A stretch of 64,000 bases of DNA from Procambarus clarkii (Eukaryota; Arthropoda; Malacostraca; Decapoda; Cambaridae), in assembly GCF_040958095.1 (NCBI RefSeq), contig NC_091160.1, positions 34,850,977 to 34,914,976 on the forward strand. The letters run 5' to 3'. Below, piece by piece: positions 23,580 to 61,426 of this stretch. The notes under the pieces were generated by a model. That model made no database searches. It was not told the origin of the DNA and saw nothing but the letters and a program-made list of their open reading frames with translations. The position numbers and the translations under genes are program-made. The number at the start of each line of letters is the position of its first letter. The stretch's first letter is position 1.

Positions 23580-23818
23580 CGTCATCACGCACTTAAGTGT
23601 CCACTTAAGAACTCTGTACATCTTTCTTCAGTCATGGCGGCTTTGTTTACATTAGTTCATGAGCACCGAAGCGCTACGTGGTTGTTTATAACAATAATAA
23701 CCTTGGGTTGGGAAGTTTCCAAGCCCGTAAACTGTTTAATAAATGTAAACATAAGGCGCCATGATTGAGGAAAGATGAGCATCTTTTGTAAGTGGTTGCG
23801 TAAATGCTTGATGAATCC
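23580..23818. mobile_element. Palindromic MITE copy 1, abutting the giant gene stop codon
   Basis: It shares the interior tttataacaataataacctt and gtaaactgtttaataaatgt with copies at 40556, 41921 and 55894; the terminal repeats are diverged. On the minus strand it starts about 24 bp after the stop codon and contains ATTAAA. Confidence 0.75.
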
Positions 23819-23841: not shown

Positions 23842-26800
23842 CTACGACGCTGGTCTCTTGCTACGGAAAAAGAATCTTATAAATCTTTGGAAAAAAGATA
23901 AAGCTGGTTTGGATACAGACACGTACTCTGCTTCTTTCTCTTCATCTGCTGTAGATGTTAATCCCTCTTCAGCTGCTTCGATGTCGGTAGCAAGTCCAAT
24001 CTCTTCTAACTCAGTAGCTGGTGTTTTCTTTGCTTCACATGCTGCCTTGACATCATTCACTTCTGCTTCATTGGCAGCACCAGACTCTGCTTCAGTGGCC
24101 TCTGCTTCAGTGGCCTCTGCTTCAGTGGCCTCTGCTTCGGTGGCCTCTGCTTCAATGGCCTCTGCTTCAGTGGCCTCTGCTTCAGTGGCCTCTGCTTCGG
24201 TGGCCTCTGCTTCGGTGGTCTCTGCTTCAATGGCCTCTGCTTCAGTGGCCTCTGCTTCAGTGGCCTCTGCTTCGGTGGCCTCTGCTTCAGTGGCCTCTGC
24301 TTCAATGGCCTCTGCTTCAGTGGCCTCTGCTTCAACGGAGAGTTCTGCAACAGTATTGGGTGCTGCCTTTGCCTCAGCGACAGGTGCTTCCGCGACTTCA
24401 TCAACAGCTCCTGCTGTATCAGCAAATGCTGCCTCGATACCAGCAGTAAACGCTTGACATATTTCAGTAGCAGGTGCTTCCTCTGCTATAGTGGCGGGTG
24501 CTTCATCTGCTATAGTGGCGGGTGCTGCATCTGTTATAGTGACGGGTGCTGCATCTTCTACAGTGACATGTGCTGCATCTGCTACAGTGACAATTGCTGC
24601 ATCTGCTACAGTGACAGGTGCTGCATCTGCTACAGTGACAGGTGCTGCATCTGCTACAGTGACAAGTGCTGCACCTGCTAAAGTGACAAGTGCTGCATCT
24701 GCTACAGTGACAAGTGCTGCATCTGCAACAGTGACAAGTGCTGCATCTGCTACAGTGACAGGTGCAGCATCTGCTACAGTGACAGGTGCTGCATCTGTTA
24801 CAGTGATAGGACCTGCATCTGCTACAGGGGTAAGTGCTGCTTCCAATTCTGTTGCAGGTGCTGCTTTCGATTCTGTAGAAGGTGCTGCTTTCGATTCTGT
24901 AGAAGGTGCTGCTTCTGATTCTGTGGCAGGTGCTGCTTCTGATTCTGTGACAGGTGTTGCTTCTGATTTTGTAGCAGGTGCTGCTTCTGATTCTGTGGCA
25001 GGTGCTTCTTCTGATTCGGTGTCAGATGCTGCTTCTGATTCTGTGACAGGTGCTTCTTCTGATTCTGTGGCAGGTGCTTCTTCTGATTCTGTGTCAGATG
25101 CTGCTTCTGATTCTGTGGCAGGTGCTTCTTCTGATTCTGTGTCAGATGCTGCTTCTGATTCTGTGGCAGGTGCTTCTCCTGATTCTGTGGCAGGTGCTTC
25201 TTCTGATTCTGTATCAGGTGCTGCTTTCGATTCTGTGGCAGGTGTTGCTTCCAATTCTGTAGCAGGCGCTTCTTCTGATTCTGTGGCAGGTGCTGCTTCC
25301 GATTCTGTGGCAGGTGCTTCTTCTGATTCTGTGACAGGTGCTGCTTTTGATTCTATGGCAGGTGCTGCTTCCGATTCTGTGGCAGTTGCTGCTTCTGATT
25401 CTATGGCAGGTGCTGCTTCTGATTCTATGGCAGGTGCTGCTTCCGATTCTGTTGCAGGTGCTGCTTCTGATTCTATGGCAGGTGCTGCTTCCGATTCTGT
25501 TGCAGGTGCTGCTTCTAATTTTATGGCAGGTGCTTCTTCTGATTCTGTGGCAGGTGCTGCTTCCGATTCTGTGGCAGGTGCTTCTTCTGATTCTGTGACA
25601 GGTGCTGCTTTTGATTCTATGGCAGGTGCTGCTTCCGATTCTATTACAGGTGCTGCCTCTAATTCTATGGCAAGTGCTTCTTCCGATTCTGTGGCAGGTG
25701 CTGTTTCCGACTCTGTGGCAGGTGCTGCTTCTGTATCTACGACAGGTGCTGCTTCTGATTCTGTAGCAGGTGCTTCTTCTGATTCTGTAGCAGGTGCTGC
25801 TTCTGATTCTGTGACAGGTGCTGCTTCTAATTCTATGGCAGGTGCTTCTTCCGATTCTGTGGCAGGTGCTGCTTTTGATTCTATGGCAGGTACTGCTTCC
25901 GATTTTGTGGCAGGTGTTTCTTCTGATTCTGTGGCAGGTGCTTCTTCCGATTCTGTGGCAGGTGCTGCTTTTGATTCTATGGCAGGTGCTGCTTCTGATT
26001 CTGTGGCAGGTGCTGCTTTTAATTCTATGGCAGGTGCTTCTTCCGTTTCTGTGGCAGGTGCTGCTTCTAATTCTATGGCAGGTGCTTCTTCCGATTCTGT
26101 GGCAGGTGCTGCTTTTGATTCTATGGCAGGTGCTGCTTCTGATTCTGTGGCAGGTGCTGCTTTTAATTCTATGGCAGGTGCTTCTTCCGATTCTGTGGCA
26201 GGTGATGCTTCTGATTCTATGGCAGGTGCTGCTTCTGATTCTATGGCAGGTGCTGCTTCTAATTCTATCGCAGGTGCTTCTTCCGATTCTGTGGCAGGTG
26301 CTGCTTCTGATTCTCTGGCAGGTGCTGCTTCTGATTCTATGGCAGGTGCTGCTTCTGATTCTGTAGCAGGTGCTGCTTCTGATTCTGTTACAGGTGCTGC
26401 TTCTGATTCTGTAGCAGGTGCTGCTTCTGATTCTGTTACAGGTGCTGCTTCTGATTCTGTAGCAGGTGCTGCTTCTGATTCTGTTACAAGTGCTGCCTCA
26501 GATTCTGTGACAGGTGCTGCTTCTGATTCTGTAGCAGGTGCTGCTTCTGATTCTGTGGCAGGTGCTGCTTCTGATTCTATGGCCGGTGCTGCTTCTGATT
26601 CTGTGGCAGGTGCTGCTTCTGATTCTATGGCCGGTGCTGCTTCTGATTCTGTGGCAGGTGCTGCTTTCGATTCTGTGGCAGGTGCTGCTTCTAATTCTCT
26701 GACAGGTGCTGCTTCTGATTCTATGGCCGGTGCTGCTTCTGATTCTCTGACAGGTGCTGCTTCTGATTGTATGGCAGGTGCTGTTTCTGATTCTATGGCA

Positions 26801-29800
26801 GGTGCTGCTTCTGATTCTATGGCCGGTGCTGCTTCTGATTCTCTGACAGGTGCTGCTTCTGATTCTGTGGTAGGTGCTGCTCCTGATTCTCTGACAGGTG
26901 CTGCTTCTGATTCTATGGCAGGTGCTGCTTCTGATTCTATGGCAGGTGCTGCTTCTGATTCTATGGCAGGTGCTGCTTCTGATTCTATTTCAGGTGCTGC
27001 TTCTGATTCTCTGACAGGTGCTGCTTCTGATTCTATGGCAGGTGCTGTTTCTGATTCTGTGACAGGTGCTGCTTCTGATTCTATGGCAGGTGATGCTTCT
27101 GATTCTGTGGCAGGTGCTGCTTCTGATTCTGTGACAGGTGCTGCTTCTGATTCTATGGCAGGTGCTGCTTCTGATTCTATGGCAGGTGATGCTTCTGTTT
27201 CTGTGGCAGGTGCTGCTTCTGCTTCTGTGACAGGTGCTGCTTCTGATTCTCTGACAGGTACTGCTTCTGATTCTGTGGCAGGTGCTGCTTCTGATTTTAT
27301 GGCAGGTGCTGCTTCTGATTCTATGGCAGGTGCTTCTTCCGATTCTGTGGCAGGTGCTGCTTCTGATTCTGTGACAGGTGCTGCTTCAGATTCTCTGACA
27401 GGTGCTGCTTCTGATTCTGTTACAAGTGCTGCTTCTGATACTGTAGCAGGTGCTGCTTCCGATTCAGTGGAAGGTGCTGCTTCCGATTCTGTGGCAGGTG
27501 TTGCTTCTGATTCTCTGACAGGTGCTGCTTCTGATTCTGTGGCAGGTGCTGCTTCTGATTCTCTGACAGGTGCTGCTTCTGATTCTGTGGCAGGTGCTGC
27601 TTCTGATTCTGTGACAGGTGCAGCTTCTAATTCTGAAGCAGGTGCTGCTTCTGATTCACTGACAGGTGCTGCTATTGATTCTGTGGCAGGTGTTGCTTCT
27701 GATTCTGTGGCAGGTGCTGCTTCTGATTCTATGGCAGATGCTGCTTCTAATTCTGAAGCAGGTGCTGCTTCTGATTCTCTGACAGGTGCTGCTATTGATT
27801 CTGTGGCAGGTGTTGCTTCCGATTCTGTGACAGGTGCTGCTTCTGATTCTGTGACAGGTGCTGCTTTCGATTCTGTGGAAGGTGCTGCTTCTGATTCTGT
27901 TACAGGTGCTGCTTCCGATTCTGTTGCAGGTGCTGCTTTCGATTCTGTTACAAGTGCTGCCTCAGATTCTGTGACAGTTGCTACTTCTGATTCTGTAGCA
28001 GGTGCTGCTTCTGATTCTGTTACAAGTGCTGCCTCAGATTCTGTGGCAGGTGCTGCTTCTGATTCTGTTACAGGTGCTGCCTCAGATTCTGTGGCAGGTG
28101 CTGTTTCTGATTCTATGGCCGGTACTGCTTCCACTTCTGTGTCAGATGGTGCTTCTGATTCTGTGGCAGGTGCTTCTTCCGATTCTATGGCAGGTGCTGC
28201 TTCTGATTCTATGGCCGGTGCTGCTTCTGATTCTGTGGCAGGTGCTGCTTCTGATTCTGTGGTAGGTGCTGCTTTCGATTCTGTGGCAGGGGCTGCTTCT
28301 GATTCTCTCACAGGTGCTGCTTCTGATTCTGTAGCAGGTGCTGCTTCTGTTTCTGTGGCAGGTGCTGCTTCTGTTTCTGTGGCAGGTGCTGCTTCTGATT
28401 CTCTGACAGGTGCTGCTTCTGATTCTCTGATAGGTGCTGCTTCTGATTCTGTAGCAGGTGCTGCATCAGATTCTGTGACAGGTGCTGCCTCAGATTCTGT
28501 GACAGGTGCTGCATGAGATTCTGTGACAGGTGCTGCTTCTGATTCTCTGACAGGTGCTGCTTCTGATTCTGTGACAGGTGCTGCTTCTGATTCTCTGACA
28601 GGTGCTGCTTCTGATTCTCTGACAGGTGCTGCTTCTGATTCTCTGACAGGTGCTGCTTCTGATTCTGTGACAGGTGCTGCTTCTGATTCTCTGACAGGTG
28701 CTGCTTCTGATTCTGTAGCAGGTGCTGCATCAGATTCTGTGACAGGTGCTGCATCAGATTCTGTGACAGGTGCTGCATCAGATTCTGTGACAGGTGCTGC
28801 TTCTGATTCTATGGCCGGTGCTGCTTCTGATTCTATGGCAGGTGCTGCTTCTGATTCTATGGCAGGTGATGCTTTTGATTCTGTGGCAGGTGCTGCTTCT
28901 GATTCTGTGAAAGGTGCTGCTTCTGATTCTCTGACAGGTACTGCTTCTGATTCTGTGGCAGGTGCTGCTTCTGATTTTATGGCAGGTGCTGCTTCTGATT
29001 CTATGGCAGGTGCTGCTTCTGATTCTATGGAAGGTGCTGCTTCCGATTCTGTGGCAGGTGTTGCTTCTGATTCTCTGACAGGTGCTGCTTCTGATTCTGT
29101 GGCAGGTGCTCCTTCTGATTCTCTGACAGGTGCTGCTTCTGATTCTGTGGCAGGTGCTGCTTCTAATTCTGAAGCAGGTGCTGCTATTGATTCTGTGGCA
29201 GGTGTTGCTTCTGATTCTGTGGCAGGTGCTGCTTCTGATTCTATGGCAGGTGCTGCTTCCGATTCTGTGACAGGTGCTGCTTCTAATTCTGAAGCAGGTG
29301 CTGCTTCTAATTCTGAAGCAGGTGCTGCTTCTGATTCTCTGACAGGTGCTGCTATTGATACTGTGGCAGGTGTTGCTTCCGATTCTGTGACAGGTGCTGC
29401 TTCTGATTCAGTGGGAGGTGCTGCTTCTGATTCAGTGGGAGGTGCTGCTTCCGATTCTTTAACAGATGCTGCTTCCGAATCTGTGGAAGGTGCTGCTTCC
29501 GAATGTCTGACAGGTGCTGCTACCGATTCTGTTACAGGTGCTGCTTCTGATTCTGTAGCAGGTGCTGCTTCCGATTCTGTTACAGGTGCTGCTTCCGATT
29601 CTGTTGCAAGTGCTGCTTTCGATTCTGTGGAAGGTGCTGCTTCTGATTCTGTTGCAGGTGCTGCTACCGATTCTGTTACAGGTGCTGCTTCCGATTCTGT
29701 TGCAAGTGCTGCTTTCGATTCTGTGGAAGGAGCTGCTTCTGATTCTGTTACAGGTGCTGCTTCCGATTCTGTGGAAGGTGATGCTTCTGATACTGTAGCA

Positions 29801-32800
29801 GGTGCTGCTTCTGATTCTGTGAAAGGTGCTGCTTCCGATTCTGTAGCAGGTGCTGCTTCCGATTCTGTGACAGGTGCTGCTTCCACTTCTGTGTCAGATG
29901 GTGCTTCTGATTTTGTGGTAGGTGCTGCTTCTAATTCTATGGCAGGTGCTGCTTCCGATTCTATGGCAGGTGCTGCTTCTGATTCTATGGCCGGTGCTGC
30001 TTCTGATTCTGTGGCAGGTGCTGCTTCTGATTCTCTGACAGGTGCTGCTTCTGATTCTCTGACAGGTGCTGCTTCTAATTCTGTGACAGGTGCTGCTTCT
30101 GATTCTCTGACAGGTGCTGCTTCTGATTCTGTGACAGGTGCTGCTTCTGATTCTGTGACAGGTGCTGCTTCTGATTCTGTGACAGGTGCTGCTTCTGATT
30201 CTCTGACAGGTGCTGCTTCTAATTCTGTGGCAGGTGCTGCATCAGATTCTGTGACAGGTGCTGCTTCTGTTTCTGTGGCAGGTGCTGCTTCTGATTCTGT
30301 AGCAGGTGCTGCATCGGATTCTGTGACAGGTGCTGCATCAGATTCTGTGACAGGTGCTGCTTCTAATTCTCTGACAGGTGCTGCTTCTGATTCTGTGGCA
30401 GGTGCTGCATCAGATTCTGTGACAGGTGCTGCTTCTGATTCTATGGCAGGTGCTGTTTCTGATTCTATGGCCGGTGCTGCTTCTGATTCTCTGACAGGTG
30501 CTGCTTCTGATTCTGTGGCAGGTGCTGCTCCTGATTCTCTGACTGGTGCTGCTTCTGATTCTATGGCCGGTGCTGCTTCTGATTCTATGGCAGGTGCTGC
30601 TTCTGATTCTATGGCAGGTGCTGCTTCTGATTCTCTGACTGGTGCTGCTTCTGATTCTATAGCAGGTGCTGTTTCTGATTCTATGGCAGGTGCTGCTTCT
30701 GATTCTATGGCCGGTGCTGCTTCTGATTCTATGGCAGGTGATGCTTCTGATTCTATGGCAGGTGATGCTTCTGAATCTGTGGCAGGTGCTGCTTCTGATT
30801 CTGTGACAGGTGCTGCTTTTGATTCTCTGACAGGTACTGCTTCTGATTCTGTGGCAGGTGCTGCTTCTGATTTTATGGCAGGTGCTGCTTCTGATTCTAT
30901 GGCAGGTGCTTCTTCCGATTCTGTGGCAGGTGCTGCTTCTGATTCTGTGACAGGTGCTGCTTCAGATTCTCTGACAGGTGCTGCTTCTGTTTCTGTTACA
31001 AGTGCTGCTTCTGATACTGTAGCAGGTGCTGCTTCCGATTCAGTGGAAGGTGCTGCTTCCGATTCTGTGGCAGGTGTTGCTTCTGATTCTCTGACAGGTG
31101 CTGCTTCTGATTCTTTGACAGGTGCTTCTTCTGATTCTGTGGCAGGTGCTGCTTCTGATTCTGTGACAGGTGCTGCTTCTAATTCTGAAGCAGGTGCTGC
31201 TTCTGATTCTCTGACAGGTGCTGTTATTGATTCTGTGGCAGGTGTTGCTTTCGATTCTGTGACAGGTGCTGCTTCTGATTCTGTGGAAGGTTCTGCTTCT
31301 GATTCTGTTGCAGGTGCTGCTTCGAATTCTGTTACAGGTGCTGCTTCCGATTCTGTGGCAGGAGTTGCTTCTGATTCTCTGACAGGTGCTGCTTCTGATT
31401 CTATTTCATGTGCTGCTTCCGATTCTGTGGAAGGTGCTGCTTCTGATTCTGTTACAAGTGCTGCTTCGAATTCTGTTACAGGTGCTGCTTCCGATTCTAT
31501 TGCAGGAGTTGCTTCTGATTCTCTGACAGGTGCTGCTTCTGATTCTCTGACAGGTGCTGCTTCGGATTCTCTGACAGGTGCTGCTTCTAATTCTGTGGCA
31601 GGTGCTGCTTCTGATTCTCTGACAGGTGCTGCTTCTAATTCTGTGGCAGGTGCTGCATCAGATTCTGTGACAAGTGCTGCTTCTGTTTCTGTGGCAGGTG
31701 CTGCTTCTGATTCTCTGACAGGTGCTGCTTCTGATTCTGTAGCAGGTGCTGCATCAGACTCAGTGACAGGTGCTGCATCAGATTCTGTGACAAGTGCTGC
31801 TTCTGATTCTGTGGCAGGTGCTGCTTCTGATTCTCTGACAGGTGCTGCTTCTGATTCGCGGACAGGTGCTGCTTCTGATTCTGTGACAGGTGCTGCTTCT
31901 GATTCTGTGACAGGTGCTGCTTCTGATTCTCTGACAGGTGCTGCTTCTAATTCTGTGACAGGTGCTGCATCAGATTCTGTGACAAGTGCTGCTTCTGATT
32001 CTTTCTCAGGTGCTGCCTCAGATTCTGTGACAAGTGCTGCTTCTGATTCTGTGGCAGGTGCTGCTTCTGATTCTCTGACAGGTGCTGCTTCTGATTCGCT
32101 GACAGGTGCTGCTTCTGATTCTGTGACAGGTGCTGCTTCTGATTCTGTGACAGGTGCTGCTTCTAATTCTCTGACAGGTGCTGCTTCTGATTCTGTGGCA
32201 GGTGCTGCATCAGATTCTGTGACAGGTGCTGCATCAGATTCTGTGACAGGTGCTGCTTCCGATTCTGTGGCAGGTGCTGCTTCTGATTCTGTGGCAGGTG
32301 CTGCTTCTGATTCTGTGACAGGTGCTGCTTCTAATTCTGAAGCAGGTGCTGCTTCTGATTCTCTGACAGGTGCTGTTATTGATTCTGTGGCAGGTGTTGC
32401 TTCCGATTCTGTGACAGGTGCTGCTTCTGATTCTGTGGAAGGTTCTGCTTCTGATTCTGTTGCAGGTGCTGCTTCGAATTCTGTTACAGGTGCTGCTTCC
32501 GATTCTGTGGCAGGAGTTGCTTCTGATTCTCTGACAGGTGCTGCTTCTGATTCTATTTCATGTGCTGCTTCCGATTCTGTGGAAGGTGCTGCTTCTGATT
32601 CTGTTACAAGTGCTGCTTCGAATTCTGTTACAGGTGCTGCTTCCGATTCTGTTGCAGGAGTTGCTTCTGATTCTCTGACAGGTGCTGTTTCGGATTCTCT
32701 GACAGGTGCTGCTTCTAATTCTGTGGCAGGTGCTGCTTCTGATTCTCTGACAGGTGCTGCTTCTAATTCTGTGGCAGGTGCTGCATCAGATTCTGTGACA

Positions 32801-35800
32801 AGTGCTGCTTCTGTTTCTGTGGCAGGTGCTGCTTCTGATTCTGTGACAGGTGCTGCTTCTGATTCTGTAGCAGGTGCTGCATCAGACTCAGTGACAGGTG
32901 CTGCATCAGATTCTGTGACAAGTGCTGCTTCTGATTCTGTGGCAGGTGCTGCTTCTGATTCTCTGACAGGTGCTGCTTCTGATTCGCTGACAGGTGCTGC
33001 TTCTGATTCTGTGACAGGTGCTGCTTCTGATTCTGTGACAGGTGCTGCTTCTGATTCTCTGACAGGTGCTGCTTCTAATTCTGTGACAGGTGCTGCATCA
33101 GATTCTGTGACAAGTGCTGCTTCTGATTCTTTCTCAGGTGCTGCCTCAGATTCTGTGACAAGTGCTGCTTCTGATTCTGTGGCAGGTGCTGCTTCTGATT
33201 CTCTGACAGGTGCTGCTTCTGATTCGCTGACAGGTGCTGCTTCTGATTCTGTGACAGGTGCTGCTTCTGATTCTGTGACAGGTGCTGCATCAGATTCTGT
33301 GACAGGTGCTGCATCAGATTCTGTGACAGGTGCTGCTTCCGATTCTGTGGCAGGTGCTGCTTCTGATTCTGTGGCAGGTGCTGCTTCTGATTCTGTAGCA
33401 GGTGCTGCATCAGATTTTGTGACAGGTGCTGCATCAGATTCTGTGACAGGTGCTGCTTCTAATTCTCTGACAGGTGCTGCTTCTGATTCTGTGGCAGGTG
33501 CTGCATCAGATTCTGTGACAGGTGCTGCATCAGATTCTGTGACAGGTGCTGCATCAGATTCTGTGACAGGTGCTGCTTCTGATTCTATGGCAGGTGTTGC
33601 TTCTGATTCTATGGCAGGTGCTGCTTCTGATTCTGTGACAGGTGCTGCTTCTGATTCTATGGCAGGTGCTGCTTCTGATTCTATGGCAGGTGCTGCTTCT
33701 GATTCTGTGACAGGTGCTGCTTCTGATTCTATGGCAGGTGCTGCTTCTGATTCTATGGCAGGTGCTGCTTCTGATTCTGTGGAAGGTGCTGTTTCCGAAT
33801 GTCTGACAGGTGCTGCTTCCAATTCTGTTACAGGTGTTTCTTCCGATTCTATGGCAGGTGCTGCTTCTGATTCTATGGCAGGTGCTGCTTCTGATTCTCT
33901 GACAGGTGCTGCTTCTGATTCTGTGACAGGTGCTGCTTCTGATTCTGTGACAGGTGCTGCATCAGATTCTGTGACAGGTGCTGCATCAGATTCTGTGGCA
34001 GGTGCTGCTTTCGATTCTGTCACAGGTGCTTCTTCCGATTCTATGGCAGGTGCTGCTTCTGATTCTCTGACAGGTGCTGCTTCTGATTCTCTGACAGGTG
34101 CTGCTTCTGATTCTCTGACAGGTGCTGCTTCTGATTCTCTGACAGGTGCTGCTTCTGATTCTCTGACAGGTGCTGCTTCTGATTCTCTGACAGGTGCTGC
34201 TTCTGATTCTCTGACAGGTGCTGCTTCTGATTCTCTGACAGGTGCTGCTTCTGATTCTCTGACAGGTGCTGCTTCTGATTCTCTGACAGGTGCTGCTTCT
34301 GATTCCGTGACATGTGCTGCTTCTGATTCTGTGACAGGTGCTGCTTCTGATTCTCTGACAGGTGCTGCTTTTGATTCTGTGACAGGTGCTGCTTTCGATT
34401 CTGTGACAGGTGCTGCTTCTGATTCTGTGACAGGTGCTGCTTCTGATTCTGTGGCAGGTGCTGCTTCTGATTCTGTGGCAGGTGCTGCTTCTGATTCTGT
34501 GACAGGTGCTGCTTCTGATTCTGTGACAGGTGCTGCTTCTGATTCTGTGGCAGGTGCTGCTTCTGATTCTGTGACAGGTGCTGCTTCTGATTCCGTGACA
34601 GGTGCTGCTTCTGATTCTGTTACAGATGCTGCTTCTGATTCTGTGACAGGAGCTGCTTCTGACTCTGTAGCAGGTGCTGCTTCCAATTCTGTGGAAGGTG
34701 CTGTTTCTGACTCTGTTACAGGTGTTTCTTCCGATTCTATGGCAGGTGCTGCTTCTGATTCTCTGACAGGTGCTGATTCTGATTCTGTGGCAGGTGCTGC
34801 TTCTGATTCTGTGACAGGTGCTGCTTCTGACTCTGTAGCAGGTGCTGCTTCCAATTCTGTGGAAGGTGCTGCTTCCGAATGTCTGACAGGTGCTGCTTCT
34901 GATTCTGTTACAGGTGCTGTTTCTGACTCTGTTACAGGTGTTTCTTCCGATTCTATGGCAGGTGCTACTTCTGATTCTGTGACAGGTGCTGCTTCTGATT
35001 CTGTGGCAGGTGCTGCTTCTGATTCTGTGACAGGTGCTGCTTCTGATTCCGTGACAGGTGCTGCTTCTGACTCTGTAGCAGGTGCTGCTTCCAATTCTGT
35101 GGAAGGTGCTGTTTCTGACTCTGTTACAGGTGTTTCTTCCGATTCTATGGCAGGTGCTGCTTCTGATTCTCTGACAGGTGCTGATTCTGATTCTGTGGCA
35201 GGTGCTGCTTCTGATTCTGTGACAGGTGCTGCTTCTGACTCTGTAGCAGGTGCTGCTTCCAATTCTGTGGAAGGTGCTGCTTCCGAATGTCTGACAGGTG
35301 CTGCTTCTGATTCTGTTACAGGTGCTGTTTCTGACTCTGTTACAGGTGTTTCTTCCGATTCTATGGCAGGTGCTACTTCTGATTCTGTGACAGGTGCTGC
35401 TTCTGATTCTGTTACAGGTGCTGCTTTTGATTCTCTGACAGGTGCTGCTTCTGATTCTGTGGCAGGTGCTGCTTCTGATTCTCTGACAGGTGCTGATTCT
35501 GATTCTGTGACAAATGCTGCATCCGATTCTTTGGCAGGTGCTGCATCAGATTCTGTGACAGGTGCTGCATCAGATTCTGTGGCAGGTGCTGCTTTCGATT
35601 CTGTCACAGGTGCTTCTTCCGATTCTATGGCAGGTGCTGCTTCTGATTCTCTGACAGGTGCTGCTTCTGATTCTCTGACAGGTGCTGCTTCTGATTCTCT
35701 GACAGGTGCTGCTTCTGATTCTCTGACAGGTGCTGCTTCTGATTCTCTGACAGGTGCTGCTTCTGATTCTCTGACAGGTGCTGCTTTCGATTCTGTGACA

Positions 35801-37112
35801 GGTGCTGCTTTCGATTCTGTGACAGGTGCTGCTTCTGATTCTGTGACAGGTGCTGCTTCTGATTCTGTGGCAGGTGCTGCTTCTGATTCTGTGGCAGGTG
35901 CTGCTTCTGATTCTGTGACAGGTGCTGCTTCTGATTCTGTGACAGGTGCTGCTTCTGATTCTGTGGCAGGTGCTGCTTTCGATTCTGTGACAGGTGCTGC
36001 TTTCGATTCTGTGACAAGTGCTGCTTCTGATTCTGTGACAGGTGCTGCTTCTGATTCTGTGGCAGGTGCTGCTTCTGATTCTGTGGCAGGTGCTGCTTCT
36101 GATTCTGTGACAGGTGCTGCTTCTGATTCTGTGACAGGTGCTGCTTCTGATTCTGTGGCAGGTGCTGCTTTCGATTCTGTGACAGGTGCTGCTTTCGATT
36201 CTGTGACAAGTGCTGCTTCTGATTCTGTGGCAGGTGCTGCTTCTGATTCTGTGACAGGTGCTGCTTCTGATTCTGTGGCAGGTGCTGCTTCTGATTCTGT
36301 GGCAGGTGCTGCTTCTGATTCTGTGACAGGTGCTGCTTCTGATTCTGTGACAGGTGCTGCTTCTGATTCTGTGGCAGGTGCTGCTTCTGATTCTGTGGCA
36401 GGTGCTGCTTCTGATTCTGTGGCAGGTGCTGCTTCTGATTCTGTGACAGGTGCTGCTTCTGATTCCGTGACAGGTGCTGCTTCTGATTCTGTTACAGATG
36501 CTGCTTCTGATTCTGTGACAGGTGCTGCTTCTGATTCTGTGGCAGGTGCTGCTTCTGATTCTGTGACAGGTGCTGCTTCTGATTCCGTGACAGGTGCTGC
36601 TTCTGACTCTGTAGCAGGTGCTGCTTCCAATTCTGTGGAAGGTGCTGTTTCTGACTCTGTTACAGGTGTTTCTTCCGATTCTATGGCAGGTGCTGCTTCT
36701 GATTCTGTGACAGGTGCTGCTTCTGATTCTGTTACAGGTGCTGCTTTTGATTCTCTGACAGGTGCTGCTTCTGATTCTGTTACAGGTGCTGTTTCTGACT
36801 CTGTTACAGGTGTTTCTTCCGATTCTATGGCAGGTGCTGCTTCTGATTCTGTGACAGGTGCTGCTTCTGATTCTGTTACAGGTGCTGCTTTTGATTCTCT
36901 GACAGGTGCTGCTTCTGATTCTGTGGCAGGTGCTGCTTCTGATTCTCTGACAGTTGCTGCTTCTGATTCTGTGGCAGGTGCTGAATTCGAATCTGTGACA
37001 GGTGTTGCTGGTACTGTTGAAGATAGTGGTACTAGAGTTATGGTGTCGACATCTCTTGGTTCTTCTAATCTGTATCCTTTGGGCCTATCGCCGGTTGTCT
37101 CTATTTCAAGTT
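23842..37112 (-). CDS. Giant terminal exon, 13.27 kb, uninterrupted
   Basis: The acceptor is TTCATTTTTAG|AACTTG at 37113 and the stop is TAG at 23844-23842. The whole frame is open for 4,422 codons. It begins and ends in non-repetitive sequence that continues the same frame (LEIETTGDRPKGYRLEEPRD at the start, SFFQRFIRFFFRSKRPAS at the end). The opposite strand is also open over long stretches because of the 24-bp period. But it carries a TGA at 28514 that on this strand is only a missense (ESHAAP), and it has no comparable unique flanks. Most differences between units are synonymous in this frame (TCA/TCG, ACA/ACG, GTC/GTA) or interchange V/A and T/R/I at two positions. Confidence 0.75.
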
Positions 37113-38034
37113 CTAAAAATGAATTACTTTTGATTAATGGCAACATCATTATGTTAATCTTTAATTATTTTGTAATTTTTTTATTTCTCTTTTAAGTTTT
37201 TTTGGTAATTTAGAAAACGTAATTAATTATATTAAACAAATATAATTTAAGATTGAAATATTATTATTTTTAATAGATCTAATTGCTACTCACCGAGTGG
37301 GGCCATGGTAGCGGGGGTGACCTCTGGGGGCAGGTGTTCTAGTACACCCGGCACGGGGGTGACCTCTGGGGGCAGGTGTTCTAGTACACCCGGCACGGGG
37401 GTGACCTCTGGGGGCAGGTGTTCTAGTACACCCGGCACGGGGGTGACCTCTGGGGGCAGATGTTCTAGTTCACCCGGCACGGGGGTGACCTCTGGGGGCA
37501 GGTGTTCTAGTACACCCGGCACCGGGGTGACCTCTGGGGGCAGCTGTTCACATCTTGTTTGGCTGCCATACACCCTCCTGGTCTGAACAATACAACCATA
37601 TTGATCACGGCTATTGAAGGTGCGCGTGTTAGTAACTGTAGGCTACTCATAATTGCATATACAAGGCATAAAAAGAAAGAGAATAGCCTAGTATGACAGT
37701 TAACGGAGCCAATTCTGAAACGTGAACGATAAACATGAGAAGCAGAAACCAGAACTGTGGCTATTAGCATCATATTTCACAGAGGTTGCATGCCACGAAT
37801 ATATTTCAAGTACGATACCTGCTTGGAGGAGAAGTAGGATGGGGTGGTGGTGGTGGAGGCGAGGGCGTGTGTGGGCGGCGAGGGTGTGTGTGGGCGGCGT
37901 GTGTGTGTGTGGGCGGCGAGGGTGTGTGTGGGCGGCGAGGGCGGCGTGGGCGGCATCATCATGGAAGACTGGAGCGCCCCACAGGCTGCACCACTCATCC
38001 GGTCTTGCTGTGACGGCAACACAATAATGATCAT
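23842..38034 (-). CDS. Giant acidic tandem-repeat protein, ~4,590 residues, three-exon model
   Basis: No family is recognised. Model exons are 38034-37819 (72 codons), 37582-37294 (96 codons plus one base) and 37112-23842 (4,422 codons plus stop TAG). Junctions are CAG|GTATCG to TTGTTCAG|ACC (phase 0) and CTCG|GTGAGT to TTTTTAG|AAC (phase 1), and the frame is open throughout. Approximate order in the protein: Pro/Thr/His-rich N-terminus; six ~14-residue repeats (LPPEVTPVPGVLEH); ~35 unique residues; ~507 octapeptides ESEAAP[VA][TRI] (residues ~203-4258); ~15 ADAAPVTV units; ~45 unique residues; ~17 TEAEA units; ~80 unique residues ending FFQRFIRFFFRSKRPAS. Each octapeptide carries a net charge of -1 to -2, so the product would be an enormous polyanion, roughly 450 kDa by composition. 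Many units contain T-E-S-E, which fits the casein kinase 2 consensus. No clear signal peptide or membrane span is visible. It could be an extracellular or mineral-matrix polyanion, a cytoskeletal spacer, or a noncoding satellite kept open by chance; register and flanks favour coding. Confidence 0.72.
24086..24336 (-). repeat. 15-bp coding array, TEAEA pentapeptide, ~17 units
   Basis: The + strand unit is gcctctgcttcagtg, encoding EATEA in the giant-gene frame with I for T variants. It is the third repeat type in the same exon, followed by the unique C-terminus. Confidence 0.9.
24481..24838 (-). repeat. Second 24-bp coding array, ADAAPVTV, ~15 units
   Basis: This keeps the same 24-bp spacing as the main array but has a distinct consensus (+ strand gctgcatctgctacagtgac plus aggt). 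It encodes an octapeptide with one Asp in place of the two Glu, and continues in the same open frame. Confidence 0.9.
24845..37010 (-). repeat. 24-bp coding array encoding ESEAAPVT octapeptides, ~507 units
   Basis: The + strand unit is ggtgctgcttctgattctgt plus gaca. The unit phase at 24961 is the same as at 36961, exactly 12,000 bp or 500 units later, so there is no net frame slip. Larger blocks are copied in whole units: 34681 and 35089 are 408 bp apart (17 units), 31221 and 32373 are 1,152 bp apart (48 units), and 34021 and 35605 are 1,584 bp apart (66 units). Ten identical units run from about 34064 to 34303. Confidence 0.95.
37294..37582 (-). CDS. Exon 2 of giant repeat gene (LPPEVTPVPGVLEH repeats)
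   Basis: The acceptor is TGTATTGTTCAG|ACCAGG and the donor is a strong CTCG|GTGAGT at 37293; 289 nt. It encodes TRRVYGSQTRCEQ, then six ~14-residue repeats on a 42-bp unit, ending PATMAPL plus a split codon. That codon is completed as Glu by the next exon (LELEIETTGDRPKG). The consensus donor with exact phase match to the 13-kb exon is the best splice evidence for this gene. Confidence 0.6.
37305..37545 (-). repeat. 42-bp coding array, six units (LPPEVTPVPGVLEH)
   Basis: The + strand unit begins gtgacctctgggggcaggtg and spans 42 bp. Copies differ by one or two bases. It lies wholly inside exon 2 of the giant gene. Confidence 0.9.
37819..38034 (-). CDS. Putative first exon of giant repeat gene
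   Basis: The minus-strand frame starts MIIIVLPSQQDRMSGAACG, with A at -3 of the ATG, runs through Pro/Thr/His-rich low complexity and ends YFSSKQ at CAG|GTATCG. Phase 0 matches the next exon. A second in-frame ATG lies at 37998. The sequence is itself a short tandem repeat, so coding potential cannot be judged by composition; the evidence is splice phase only. Confidence 0.35.
37855..37955. repeat. G-rich ~19-bp tandem repeat in putative exon 1 of the giant gene
   Basis: Copies of gggcggcgagggtgtgtgtg, with several GGG runs on the + strand. Confidence 0.85.
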
Positions 38035-38081
38035 TGTTAAAAAGAATCAATTTTTACTCTCAGACCTAGTCCAGTCCAACC

Positions 38082-38240
38082 ACTTGGGCTGGACGGTAGA
38101 GCGACGGTCTTGCTTCATGCAGGTCGGCGTTCAATCCCCCGACCGTCCACAAGTGGTTGGGCATCATTCCTTCCCCCCGTCCCATCACAAATCCTAATTC
38201 TGACCCCTTAATTCTTGGTGATTTCTGCTGATAATCCCCC
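38082..38240 (+). mobile_element. tRNA-headed SINE
   Basis: gggctggacggtagagcgac (A-box-like), ggcgttcaatcccccgaccg (B-box-like), then ttgggcatcattccttcccc. This is the uninterrupted version of the element at 19215. Confidence 0.75.
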
Positions 38241-38322: not shown

Positions 38323-38789
38323 TTGATGTTCAGAGCTAAAGAAGACTTTTAGAACTGAGTTCTGTTTATATATTCATAATATTAGCAAAAACTAATATCT
38401 GGTTATTTTGCCTAATAGGAAGGCAAAACTTCTTGTTATACATAAAACAATTGTTCATAATTACAATGTTGGCTTTTTTTTGCGTCATCGCGTGCAAAAT
38501 TCGTTATTTACATCACTACATTTATTTTTTGTTCAAGATTGACTTTCACGTTATGTGGAAAACACGAGTCTGGCTACTTTTGTATTTTTCTTTAGTTATA
38601 GCTAGTTATGTTTTCTTTCATTATGATATGAAAAGAAAATTTAAAATTAAAGGATGACTATTTATATATATTTCTACATACAGATAATTCTATATATCAG
38701 GAGACAGACTCCTGAGCACCTATATTTACTGGTAAGTGAACAGCGGCATTAGGTGAAAGGACTGCTGACTGCTACACGCAGTCAGCAGT

Positions 38790-40112
38790 CCTGTTAAGGG
38801 CGGTCCTACTCCTGTTAGGGGCGGTCCTACTCCTGTTAAGGGCGGTCCTACTCCTGTTAGGGGCGGTCCTACTCCTGTTAGGGGCGGTCCTACTCCTGTT
38901 AGGGGCGGTCCTACTCCTGTTAAGGGCGGTCCTACTCCTGTTAAGGGCGGTCCTACTCCTGTTAAGGGCGGTCCTACTCCTGTTAGGGGCGGTCCTACTC
39001 CTGTTAGGGGCGGTCCTACTCCTGTTAGGGGCGGTCCTACTCCTGTTAGGGGCGGTCCTACTCCTGTTAGGGGCGGTCCTACTCCTGTTTTGGGCAGTTC
39101 TACTCCTGTTAAGGGCGGTCCTACTCCTGTTAGGGGCGGTCCTACTCCTGTTAAGGGCGGTCCTACTCCTGTTTAGGGCAGTTCTACTCCTGTTAAGGGC
39201 GGTCCTACTCCTGTTAGGGGCGGTCCTACTCCTGTTAAGGGCGGTCCTACTCCTGTTTTGGGCAGTTCTACTCCTGTTTTGGGCAGTCCTACTCCTGTTA
39301 GGGGCGGTCCTACTCCTGTTAAGGGCGGTCCTACTTCTGTTAAGGGCGGTCCTACTCCTGTTTTGGGCAGTTCTACTCCTGTTTTGGGCAGTCCTACTCC
39401 TGTTAGGGGCGGTCCTACTCCTGTTAAGGGCAGTCATACTCCTGTTAGGGGCGGTCCACCTCCTGTTAAGGGCAGTCCTACTCCTGTTAGGGGCGGTCCT
39501 ACTCCTGTTAAGGGCAGTCCTACTCCTGTTAAGGGCAGTCCTACTCCTGTTAAGGGCAGTCCTACTCCTGTTAAGGGCAGTCCTACTCCTGTTAAGGACA
39601 GTCCTACTCCTGTTAAGGGCAGTCATACTCCTGTTAAGGGCAGTCCTACTCCTGTTAAGGGCAGTCATACTCCTGTTAAGGGCAGTCCTACTCCTGTTAA
39701 GGGCAGTCATACTCCTATTAAGGGCAGTCATACTTCTGTTAAGGGCAGTCATACTCCTGTTAAGGGCCGTCCTACTCCTGTTAAGGGCAGTCATACTCCT
39801 GTTAAGGGCAGTCATACTCCTGTTAAGGGCAGTCCTACTCCTGTTAAGGGCAGTCATACTCCTGTTAAGGGCAATCCTACTCCTGTTAGGGGCGGTCCTA
39901 CTCCTGTTAAGGGCAGTCATACTCCTGTTAAGGGCAGTCCTACTCCTGTTAAGGGCGGTCCTACTCCTGTTAAGGGCAATCCTACTCCTGTTAGGGGCGG
40001 TCCTACTCCTGTTAAGGGCAGTCATACTCCTGTTAAGGGCAGTCCTACTCCTGTTAAAGGCGGTCCTACTCCTGTTAAGGGCGGTCCTACTCCAGTTAAG
40101 AGCGGTCCTCTT
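38790..40112. repeat. 21-bp minisatellite, ~63 copies
   Basis: The unit is cggtcctactcctgttaagg plus g. A 451-codon minus frame (ALNRSRT repeats) is open across it but has no ATG in unique sequence. The plus frame is cut by a TAG near 39174. A SINE-body fragment (tttactggtaagtgaacagc) precedes it at about 38726. Treated as noncoding. Confidence 0.93.
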
Positions 40113-60059: not shown

Positions 60060-61182
60060 GCAGTGGTTGAGCTTTGGCTCTTTGGTCCCGCCTCTCAACC
60101 GGTAATGTATTGGTGTACAGATGATAAAGCTTTTCGAGCTCTATCATATCTGCATTTGAAACTGTGAATGGAGTCAGCCTCCACCACATCACTGCCTAGT
60201 GAATTCCATTTACTAACTACTCTGACACTGAAAAAGTTCTTTTTAATGTCTCTGTGGCTCATTTGGGTACTCAACTTCCACCAGTGTCCCGTTCGTGTAC
60301 CACCCATACTAAATAATCCATCCTTGTCTACCCCTGTCAATTCCCCTGAGAATTTTGTATGTGGTGATCATGTCTCCCCGAGCGCTTCTGTCTTCCAGCG
60401 ACGAGAGTTGCAGTTCACTCATCCTTTTCTCGTAACTCATGCCTCTTAGTTCTGGGACTAGTTTAGTGGCATACCTCTGAACTTTTTCCAGCTTCGTCTT
60501 ATGCTTGGCAAGGTAAGGGCTCCATACTGGGGCCGCATACTCCAGGATTGGTCTTACATATGTGGTATACAAGGTTCTGAATGATTCCTTATACAGGTTC
60601 CTGAAGGCAGTTCTGATGTTAGCCAGCCTTGCATACGCCCCCGATGTTATTCTTTTGATGTGGGCTTCAGGAGACAGGTTTGGCGTGATATCAACTCCAA
60701 GATCTTTTTGTCAGTTTCGTTAAGGACTTCATCTCCCATTCGATCTCCAGTGTCTGGCCTCCTATTTCCTCCGCCTAGTTCCATTACCTTACATTTACTT
60801 GGGTTGAACTTCAGTAGCCATTTGTTGAATCATTCCTTCAGTTTGTCTAGGTTATCATGTAGCCTCATACTAAGTTCCTCTGTCTTAATCGTCCTCAAAA
60901 TTTTTGCATCATCAGCAAACATTGAGAGGAACGAGTCTATTCCCTCTGGGAGATCATTTACATATATCAGAAACAGAATAGGTCCAAGAACGGATCCCTG
61001 CGGGACTCCACTGGTGACGCCTCGCCACTCCGAGACCTCACCCCTCACAGTGACTCGCTGTGTCCTGTTACTTAGGTGCTCCCTTATCCATTGGAGTACC
61101 TTCCCTTTCTCTCCTGCCTGCATCTCCAGCTCGTACTCTAGCCTCTTGTGTGGCATTGTGTCAAAGGATTTGGCTGACTCGG
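60060..61182 (-). mobile_element. Non-LTR retrotransposon fragment with reverse transcriptase domain
   Basis: Read on the minus strand: [20 protein letters not shown], then [20 protein letters not shown] and [12 protein letters not shown] (the catalytic box as FADD). A frameshifted stretch follows with TYVRPILEYAAPVWSPYL, then KKNFFSVRVVSKWNSLGSDV. It is 5' truncated at about 61182, where it meets unrelated G-rich sequence, and broken by at least two frameshifts, so it is inactive. Confidence 0.88.
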
Positions 61183-61426
61183 GGTGGAGGGGGGATGGTT
61201 GTTGTGGGGAGGGGGGGGGGGACTGGGGAGTGGTTGAGAGGAGGGGGGAGGGTGAAGGAAGCATCCAGTAACTGCCCACTACGCTGCTGTGATCGTTAGG
61301 AAGAACAAATGGGAGTCCTGCCTCCCGATTGTCACGTCTTGAGACTTGTCAAGACTCCCCAAGTCGTCCTTAGACTCTCCAAGACTTGCCACTGAAGACT
61401 GACGTCTCCGGTGGCCATTACTGCTT

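Follow-up and report, generated by a model that had tools for sequence, protein, structure and literature searches.

A giant acidic repeat frame in Procambarus clarkii from which stop codons, more than residue changes, are missing

The minus strand of a 64,000-nucleotide stretch of the genome of the crayfish Procambarus clarkii (hereafter, the window; contig NC_091160.1) carries a giant open reading frame that is filled mostly by an array of 24-bp units encoding the octapeptide TESEAAPA/V. Changes that would make a stop codon are missing from the coding frame of this array, and changes of residue and of charge have accumulated at close to the neutral rate. The frame is almost certainly protein-coding, and it probably belongs to a genuine, lineage-restricted gene. 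The reading we prefer, to which we give a probability of roughly 0.45, is that the product would serve as a sequence-tolerant polyanionic spacer anchored by a C-terminal helix.

The giant frame is the longest in the window. The open-frame listing gives 4,440 codons from stop to stop (minus 37164-23845), closed by a TAG at 23844-23842; counted from the AG that precedes 37112, it comprises 4,422 codons plus the TAG (minus 37112-23842). Both ends are non-repetitive. In coding order, a unique stretch (LELEIETTGDRPKGYRLEEPRDVDTITLVPLSSTVPATPVTDSN) leads into the octapeptides, and these give way to TVADAAPV-type units; after another brief non-repetitive stretch come the TEAEA array and the final 80 codons, which are unique. 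Read from a start at MAPLE (see below), the product has 4,427 residues, 1,080 of them acidic and 144 basic, for a net charge of −936. It is rich in P, E, V, and A (Glu 23%, Asp 1.4%, Lys 1.2%) and contains 226 TESE motifs and 351 CK2-type [ST]xx[DE] sites. No Pfam family matches the 4,440-amino-acid frame at E up to 1, four motif strings of the protein were not found in print in the literature searched, and the Rfam and tRNA scans returned nothing bearing on the frame. A preliminary description of this DNA is borne out on its central points, namely a single frame open for exactly 4,422 codons with unique ends, hundreds of CK2-type sites, no recognised family, and an acidic repeat protein whose chain, judging from its composition, is most likely disordered. 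The rod-like form that it also suggested finds no support.

The same description had distinguished four separate repeat types. Repeats of 14 residues (42 bp × 5.7), 8 residues, and 5 residues (15 bp × 16.7) are indeed present, but the two 8-residue types are one: TESEAAPV and TVADAAPV units form a single continuous 24-bp array from 24515 to 37009. The 505 octapeptide units represent 160 nucleotide types and 109 amino-acid types. When the octapeptide array is cut every 24 bases, all 505 units stay in register, and there is no net frame shift across its 12.1 kb; by two gapped alignments, it holds four or two one-base gaps. Runs of units, for instance one of 14 identical consecutive units, are duplicated at a distance. 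Net negative charge per unit, by fifths of the array, is 1.69, 1.71, 1.68, 1.61, and 1.86. The [ST]xx[DE] motif is kept at its register position in 304 of the 505 units, and CK2 sites are not detectably conserved along the array.

Since 24 divides evenly by three, arrays of 24-bp units are prone to have an open frame. On the plus strand, frames of 2,892 and 1,352 codons likewise run open across the octapeptide array, and unrelated 24-bp minisatellites with open frames exist too, so openness is weak evidence by itself and we rejected it as proof of coding. Selection was therefore tested. The 160 unit types were joined by a minimum spanning tree, and the 194 substitutions inferred from it were set against the expectation for like changes at random positions. 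Not one of the 194 makes a stop in the coding frame, where 7.7 were expected in the first variant of the calculation, 8.1 in the second (P = 0.0003), 6.9 in the third (P = 0.0005), and 7.0 in a shuffle variant (0 of 500 shuffles); a realigned variant gave 0 of 193 against 7.2 (P = 0.0008). The other consensus-open frames of the array are undepleted, with 1 observed against 0.7 expected, 14 against 8.6, 19 against 13.8, and 7 against 6.5. Additionally, 54 of the 72 possible single-site changes in the unit are seen, but the four by which a consensus codon would become a stop are all absent (P = 0.003). Selection has kept the frame open, a result that weakens when singleton types alone are considered (see below).

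Changes of residue lie near neutral expectation. Replacement changes number 142 against 136.8 expected and synonymous changes 52 against 50.4; acid losses number 25 against 26.2. Charge changes as a whole match the neutral rate or exceed it a little (47 against 39.3), and gains of basic residues are slightly in excess (18 against 12.6, P = 0.06).

Outside the arrays, the C-terminal side of the frame also looks coding. Its 140 non-array codons lie in segments of 60 and 80, both of which are open in only 3 of 20,000 dinucleotide shuffles, and the frequency of G at their codon positions 1, 2, and 3 is 0.54, 0.09, and 0.13. A search of the genome (4,027,284,227 bases in 2,308 contigs, with the window at C11:34850977-34914976) with the last 54 residues gave a single match, at E up to 0.001 and likewise up to 10. 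This end is the sole non-repetitive element that is always lost on truncation. AlphaFold2, run on the single sequence, predicts with modest confidence a basic-aromatic helix there, KPALSFFQRFIRFFFR (block mean predicted local distance difference test [pLDDT] 71 and 73), which may bind membrane. Twenty-one PCNA sequences in the PDB matched the tail at an E of about 1 and were rejected, and a search of viral_contigs with the C-terminus gave 31 pattern matches, none confirmed. Just past the stop codon, at about 23630-23780, lies a short inverted repeat that by inspection resembles a miniature inverted-repeat transposable element.

The N-terminus is uncertain, with starts at 37306 and 37149 as candidates. 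Splice sites were scored with a generic matrix. A strong Kozak-like ATG, GCTACCATGG (37306-37304), stands in frame just before the donor of a predicted exon 2; this donor, TCG/GTGAGT, is the top-scoring one of the 3.3 kb scanned. Exon 2 ends CTC/G before the GTGAGT at 37293, and exon 3 begins AA/CTT at 37112, in phase. A start at 37306 yields the 4,427 residues given above, and the 14-residue array would then be 5′ untranslated region (UTR); the unspliced in-frame ATG at 37149 yields 4,435. The two upstream exons of the preliminary description, with their phase-matched GT-AG junctions, fare unevenly: the junctions exist and are in phase, but the acceptors are modest (that at 37582 ranks 17 of 291) and exon 1, the weakest part of that gene model, is doubtful. 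Minisatellite sequence rich in GC makes up most of exon 1, whose donor comes fourth in the ranking; scored as an acceptor, that same spot (37818) comes first of 291. The proposed length of ~4,590 residues is doubtful too, as it requires exon 1 (ATG at 38034 or 37962, to 37819). The candidate starts read MAPLE, MMLPL, MMMPP, and MIIIV; three of them have no long hydrophobic run, and the 38034 start, judged by eye, shows no evident signal peptide. Over 791 bases on the upstream side of the 42-bp array, genome matches are confined, among the 40 of 3,273 candidates scored, to an element at 38209-38073 resembling a short interspersed nuclear element (SINE) and to its edges.

We also considered 14 control arrays for which no coding role is known, 11 of them selected within the window or the 100 kb around it and three taken from loci L043 and L047. 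These hold only 2–17 events each, with at most 1.9 stops expected per frame, so they cannot test stop depletion, and the other frames of the octapeptide array carry that comparison. Frame-breaking indels, up to 54, occur in eight of the 14. The remaining six, which include the three 24-bp arrays of L043 and L047, have none, which makes the absence of indels weak evidence. The octapeptide array shows ~0.38 events per unit (194 in 505 units) and the controls ~0.04 to 0.78; the idea that the array is unusually old was accordingly rejected.

A query that joined the N-terminus to octapeptides gave at least 187 matches, with 150 of 64,254 candidates scored. Its own locus is the one full-length match; the others listed start no earlier than query residue 29 and fall entirely or largely within the octapeptides. 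Kinship with octapeptide matches on other chromosomes was rejected for the five regions examined. In L043, L046, and L047 the match falls in short frames of minisatellites; a 1,925-codon frame in L044 permits no judgement, since 2,754 unknown or masked bases adjoin it; and the coding-like frame of L045 is a different one, running on the other strand from the octapeptide match. The L045 array shows a tendency to stop depletion like that of the octapeptide array, with 3 stop-making changes against 9.8 expected (P = 0.016), or 3 against 8.8 by another calculation (P = 0.02). None of its units contains a stop, and the three inferred ones come from links with two differing bases in one codon. A Pfam match of L045 to Fibrinogen_BP was rejected and taken as low-complexity similarity.

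We propose that a small ancestral protein with unique ends may have been inflated by in-frame duplication of the 24-bp unit in one exon. The product, if expressed as we suppose, would be an intrinsically disordered polyanion about 4,430 residues long and located in the cytosol. Its array would act as a polyanionic spacer or brush, with a charge of about −1.7 per octapeptide, and more if phosphorylated by CK2, in which bulk charge and continuity would matter and individual residues would not. The main reason for selection to keep the frame open would be the unique C-terminus beyond the array. The amphipathic helix of the tail would most likely anchor the chain to membrane or to a protein partner, and from there the acidic chain would project as an entropic and electrostatic bristle. 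In a more specific version, which we regard as improbable, the gene would encode a membrane-tethered, micrometre-scale bristle made of one polypeptide, held by the predicted tail helix, with ~940 net negative charges and a contour of ~1.6 micrometres at 0.36 nm per residue, its array under selection for continuity and perhaps for bulk charge, its residues free to drift.

Several observations weigh against the spacer reading or the results beneath it. The singleton types alone (56 events) give 0 stops against 2.47 expected (P = 0.06), which is only suggestive, so the stop signal rests on older variation too. The tree events are approximate, the units being related and homogenised. Gains of Gly, Asn, or Gln are fewer than expected (5 against 13.3, P = 0.004, in one of 13 categories), and residues are perhaps not wholly free. 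In L045, one frame of the other strand is likewise short of stop-making changes (1 against 5.2, P = 0.03), so a single frame depleted at that level is not decisive. The single-sequence AlphaFold2 model has a mean pLDDT of 59.9, and a permutation test of the hydrophobic moment of the helix gives P = 0.055. The acceptor predicted at 37112 comes no higher than 72nd of 291, so poor a score that translation may instead begin at the unspliced 37149 start.

Near-neutral charge evolution, moreover, suits a passive passenger array equally well. Under this main rival, which we consider somewhat unlikely, the gene is real and its ends matter, but its 24-bp minisatellite expanded in frame and is tolerated, with only truncation selected against. 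Synonymous and replacement changes are as near to neutral as charge changes are, 24-bp minisatellites recur in the genome, L045 offers a similarly inflated frame on another chromosome, runs of units have been copied at a distance, and the number of events per unit, within the range of the controls, makes the divergence of the array nothing special. What speaks for a spacer instead is the uniform charge per unit over 505 units, although the shared descent of the units may be explanation enough. That the array is non-coding, and its frame fortuitously open, is scarcely credible. Open, unrelated 24-bp arrays do exist on other chromosomes, three of them tested and also free of indels, and the plus strand of the octapeptide array is itself open at length; however, stops are missing in one frame only, the unique C-terminal side carries a coding signal, a strong Kozak-like start and a good donor lie in phase, and no net frame shift has arisen in 12.1 kb, whereas eight of the 14 selected controls have frame-breaking indels.

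Two further readings accept the protein and assign it elsewhere. An elastic or spacing element of the cytoskeleton or sarcomere, comparable to PEVK segments or the side arms of neurofilaments, would fit the length, the P/E/V/A-rich composition, and the net charge, but the frame holds no Pfam domain and hence no Ig, FN3, or filament rod, Lys is scarce, and the tail is a short predicted helix of a kind not known as a filament anchor; we judge this distinctly improbable. More improbable again is a secreted, calcium-handling acidic protein of the cuticle or gastrolith matrix, an option the preliminary description had raised in the form of mineral matrices. Acidic repeats in a crustacean recommend it. 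The genome also holds nine matches to the Pfam family Crust_neurohorm (PF01147), five of them clustered on C37, against none in 14 control genomes; the family is found in insects too. Secreted mineral-matrix proteins have Asp-rich or S-x-E-rich acidic repeats, and the giant protein is neither, with its 1.4% Asp and 51 S-x-E sites in 4,427 residues against 351 of CK2 type. The option is weakened further by the lack of an evident signal peptide (at the starts checked for hydrophobic runs as described above), and the predicted basic-aromatic helix would better suit a cytosolic peripheral protein.

Table 1. Positions of the giant frame, its parts, and other features discussed. Positions are those of the window unless another locus is named.
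Feature	Position	Strand	Remarks
Giant last exon, 4,422 codons + TAG	23842..37112	minus	open frame; AG before 37112; acceptor rank 72/291 (generic matrix)
Unique C-terminal segment, 80 codons	23845..24084	minus	coding-like base pattern
Predicted basic-aromatic helix KPALSFFQRFIRFFFR	23863..23910	minus	within last 22 residues; AlphaFold2, single sequence
15-bp × 16.7 array, TEAEA pentapeptides	24085..24334	minus	
Diverged part of octapeptide 24-bp array	24517..24837	minus	TVADAAPV-type units
Octapeptide array, 505 in-register 24-bp units	24838..36972	minus	consensus TESEAAPA/V
Unique N-terminus sequence, MAPLELEIETTGDRPKGYRLEEP		minus	
Predicted intron, GTGAGT...TTTTTAG	37113..37293	minus	phase 1; good donor, weak acceptor score
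Alternative start codon without splicing, MMLPLIKSNSF...	37147..37149	minus	inside open frame
Predicted exon 2 with 42-bp × 5.7 array (37312-37549)	37294..37582	minus	coding LPPEVTPVPGVLEH or 5′ UTR
Candidate start codon in GCTACCATGG	37304..37306	minus	in frame across splice; product MAPLELEIETTGD...
Exon 1 of preliminary description	37819..38034	minus	weak candidate
Dispersed short repeat, tRNA-like SINE by inspection	38073..38209	minus	outside gene; at least 40 near-full matches elsewhere
Frame B, EAAKPAA heptads, 913 codons	11103..13841	minus	hydrophobic C-terminal tail; relation to giant frame unproven
L045 giant frame, 193-copy 24-bp ASAESKGQ array, at least 2,000 codons	L045:1-6000, C94:8210500-8216500	minus	non-repetitive coding-like flanks

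The window and its surroundings hold other frames of interest. Frame B, a neighbour of the giant frame, has unique ends that are both open in 0 of 20,000 shuffles, matches no Pfam family, and has an N-terminal part with one genome match at E up to 0.001. The stop test on its array gave 1 against 2.2 expected, too little for any power. Tandem paralogy of the two frames on the basis of their tails was rejected (local alignment score 29, shuffle P = 0.05, only suggestive); in the improbable bristle version above, frame B may be a second, lysine-bearing partner in the same cluster. About 15–19 kb before the first base of the window, L030:951-5294 (plus strand) is a Cys-rich frame of 1,448 codons with 81-bp repeats (CPPECGIVEGIDGCDVCDCN-like) and no Pfam match. 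Frames of 809 and 862 codons, also without Pfam match, lie outside listed tandem arrays at L024:2817-5243 and L024:7260-9845 (both plus). Within the window, an indel-free array of 63 21-bp units at 38789-40109 is open on both strands and has too few events for its coding to be judged, and 60833-61348 (minus) is a reverse transcriptase fragment (RVT_1, E = 5e-11).

If confirmed, the giant frame would be a very large single-exon repeat protein and a natural case in which selection against stops can be separated from selection on residues. Openness alone misleads annotators in repeat-rich genomes, where the stop test, given enough variation within an array, may help to tell coding from non-coding minisatellites.

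Tandem arrays inside large coding-like frames are shared by the giant frame with L045, L030:951-5294, and frame B (arrays of 24, 81, and 21 bp, respectively), which differ from it in repeat sequence and ends, with no shared tail found. Crayfish minisatellites are a plausible source of the octapeptide array: one study describes minisatellites as the largest component of crayfish satellite DNA and their abundance here fits a decapod such as a crayfish (PMC13130569), but the octapeptide array sits in a frame with missing stops, and the main text of that study does not contain the word exon. Among known proteins, MARCKS and Drosophila Akap200 likewise combine an Ala/Glu/Pro-rich, acidic, disordered chain with a basic-aromatic membrane-binding stretch. 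Both have the Met-Gly start required for N-terminal myristoylation. The giant protein is far longer, its basic stretch is C-terminal and may bind membrane, none of its candidate ATGs gives a Met-Gly start, and it has no MARCKS Pfam match. Calphotin, together with arthropod proteins annotated under that name, is likewise long and repetitive and contains Ala, Pro, and Val; Glu makes up 23% of the giant protein. The name calphotin is also used in a barnacle (PMC8917513). The PEVK springs of titin and crayfish I-connectin are giant disordered P/E/V-rich repeats too, and the giant frame differs from them in having no Ig or FN3 domain and 1.2% Lys; from intermediate filaments and neurofilaments it differs in having no coiled-coil rod by Pfam. 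Both differences apply to the frame itself, further upstream exons being possible. Giant disordered repeat proteins are already known as a kind, and it is the signature of selection that is unusually clean here.

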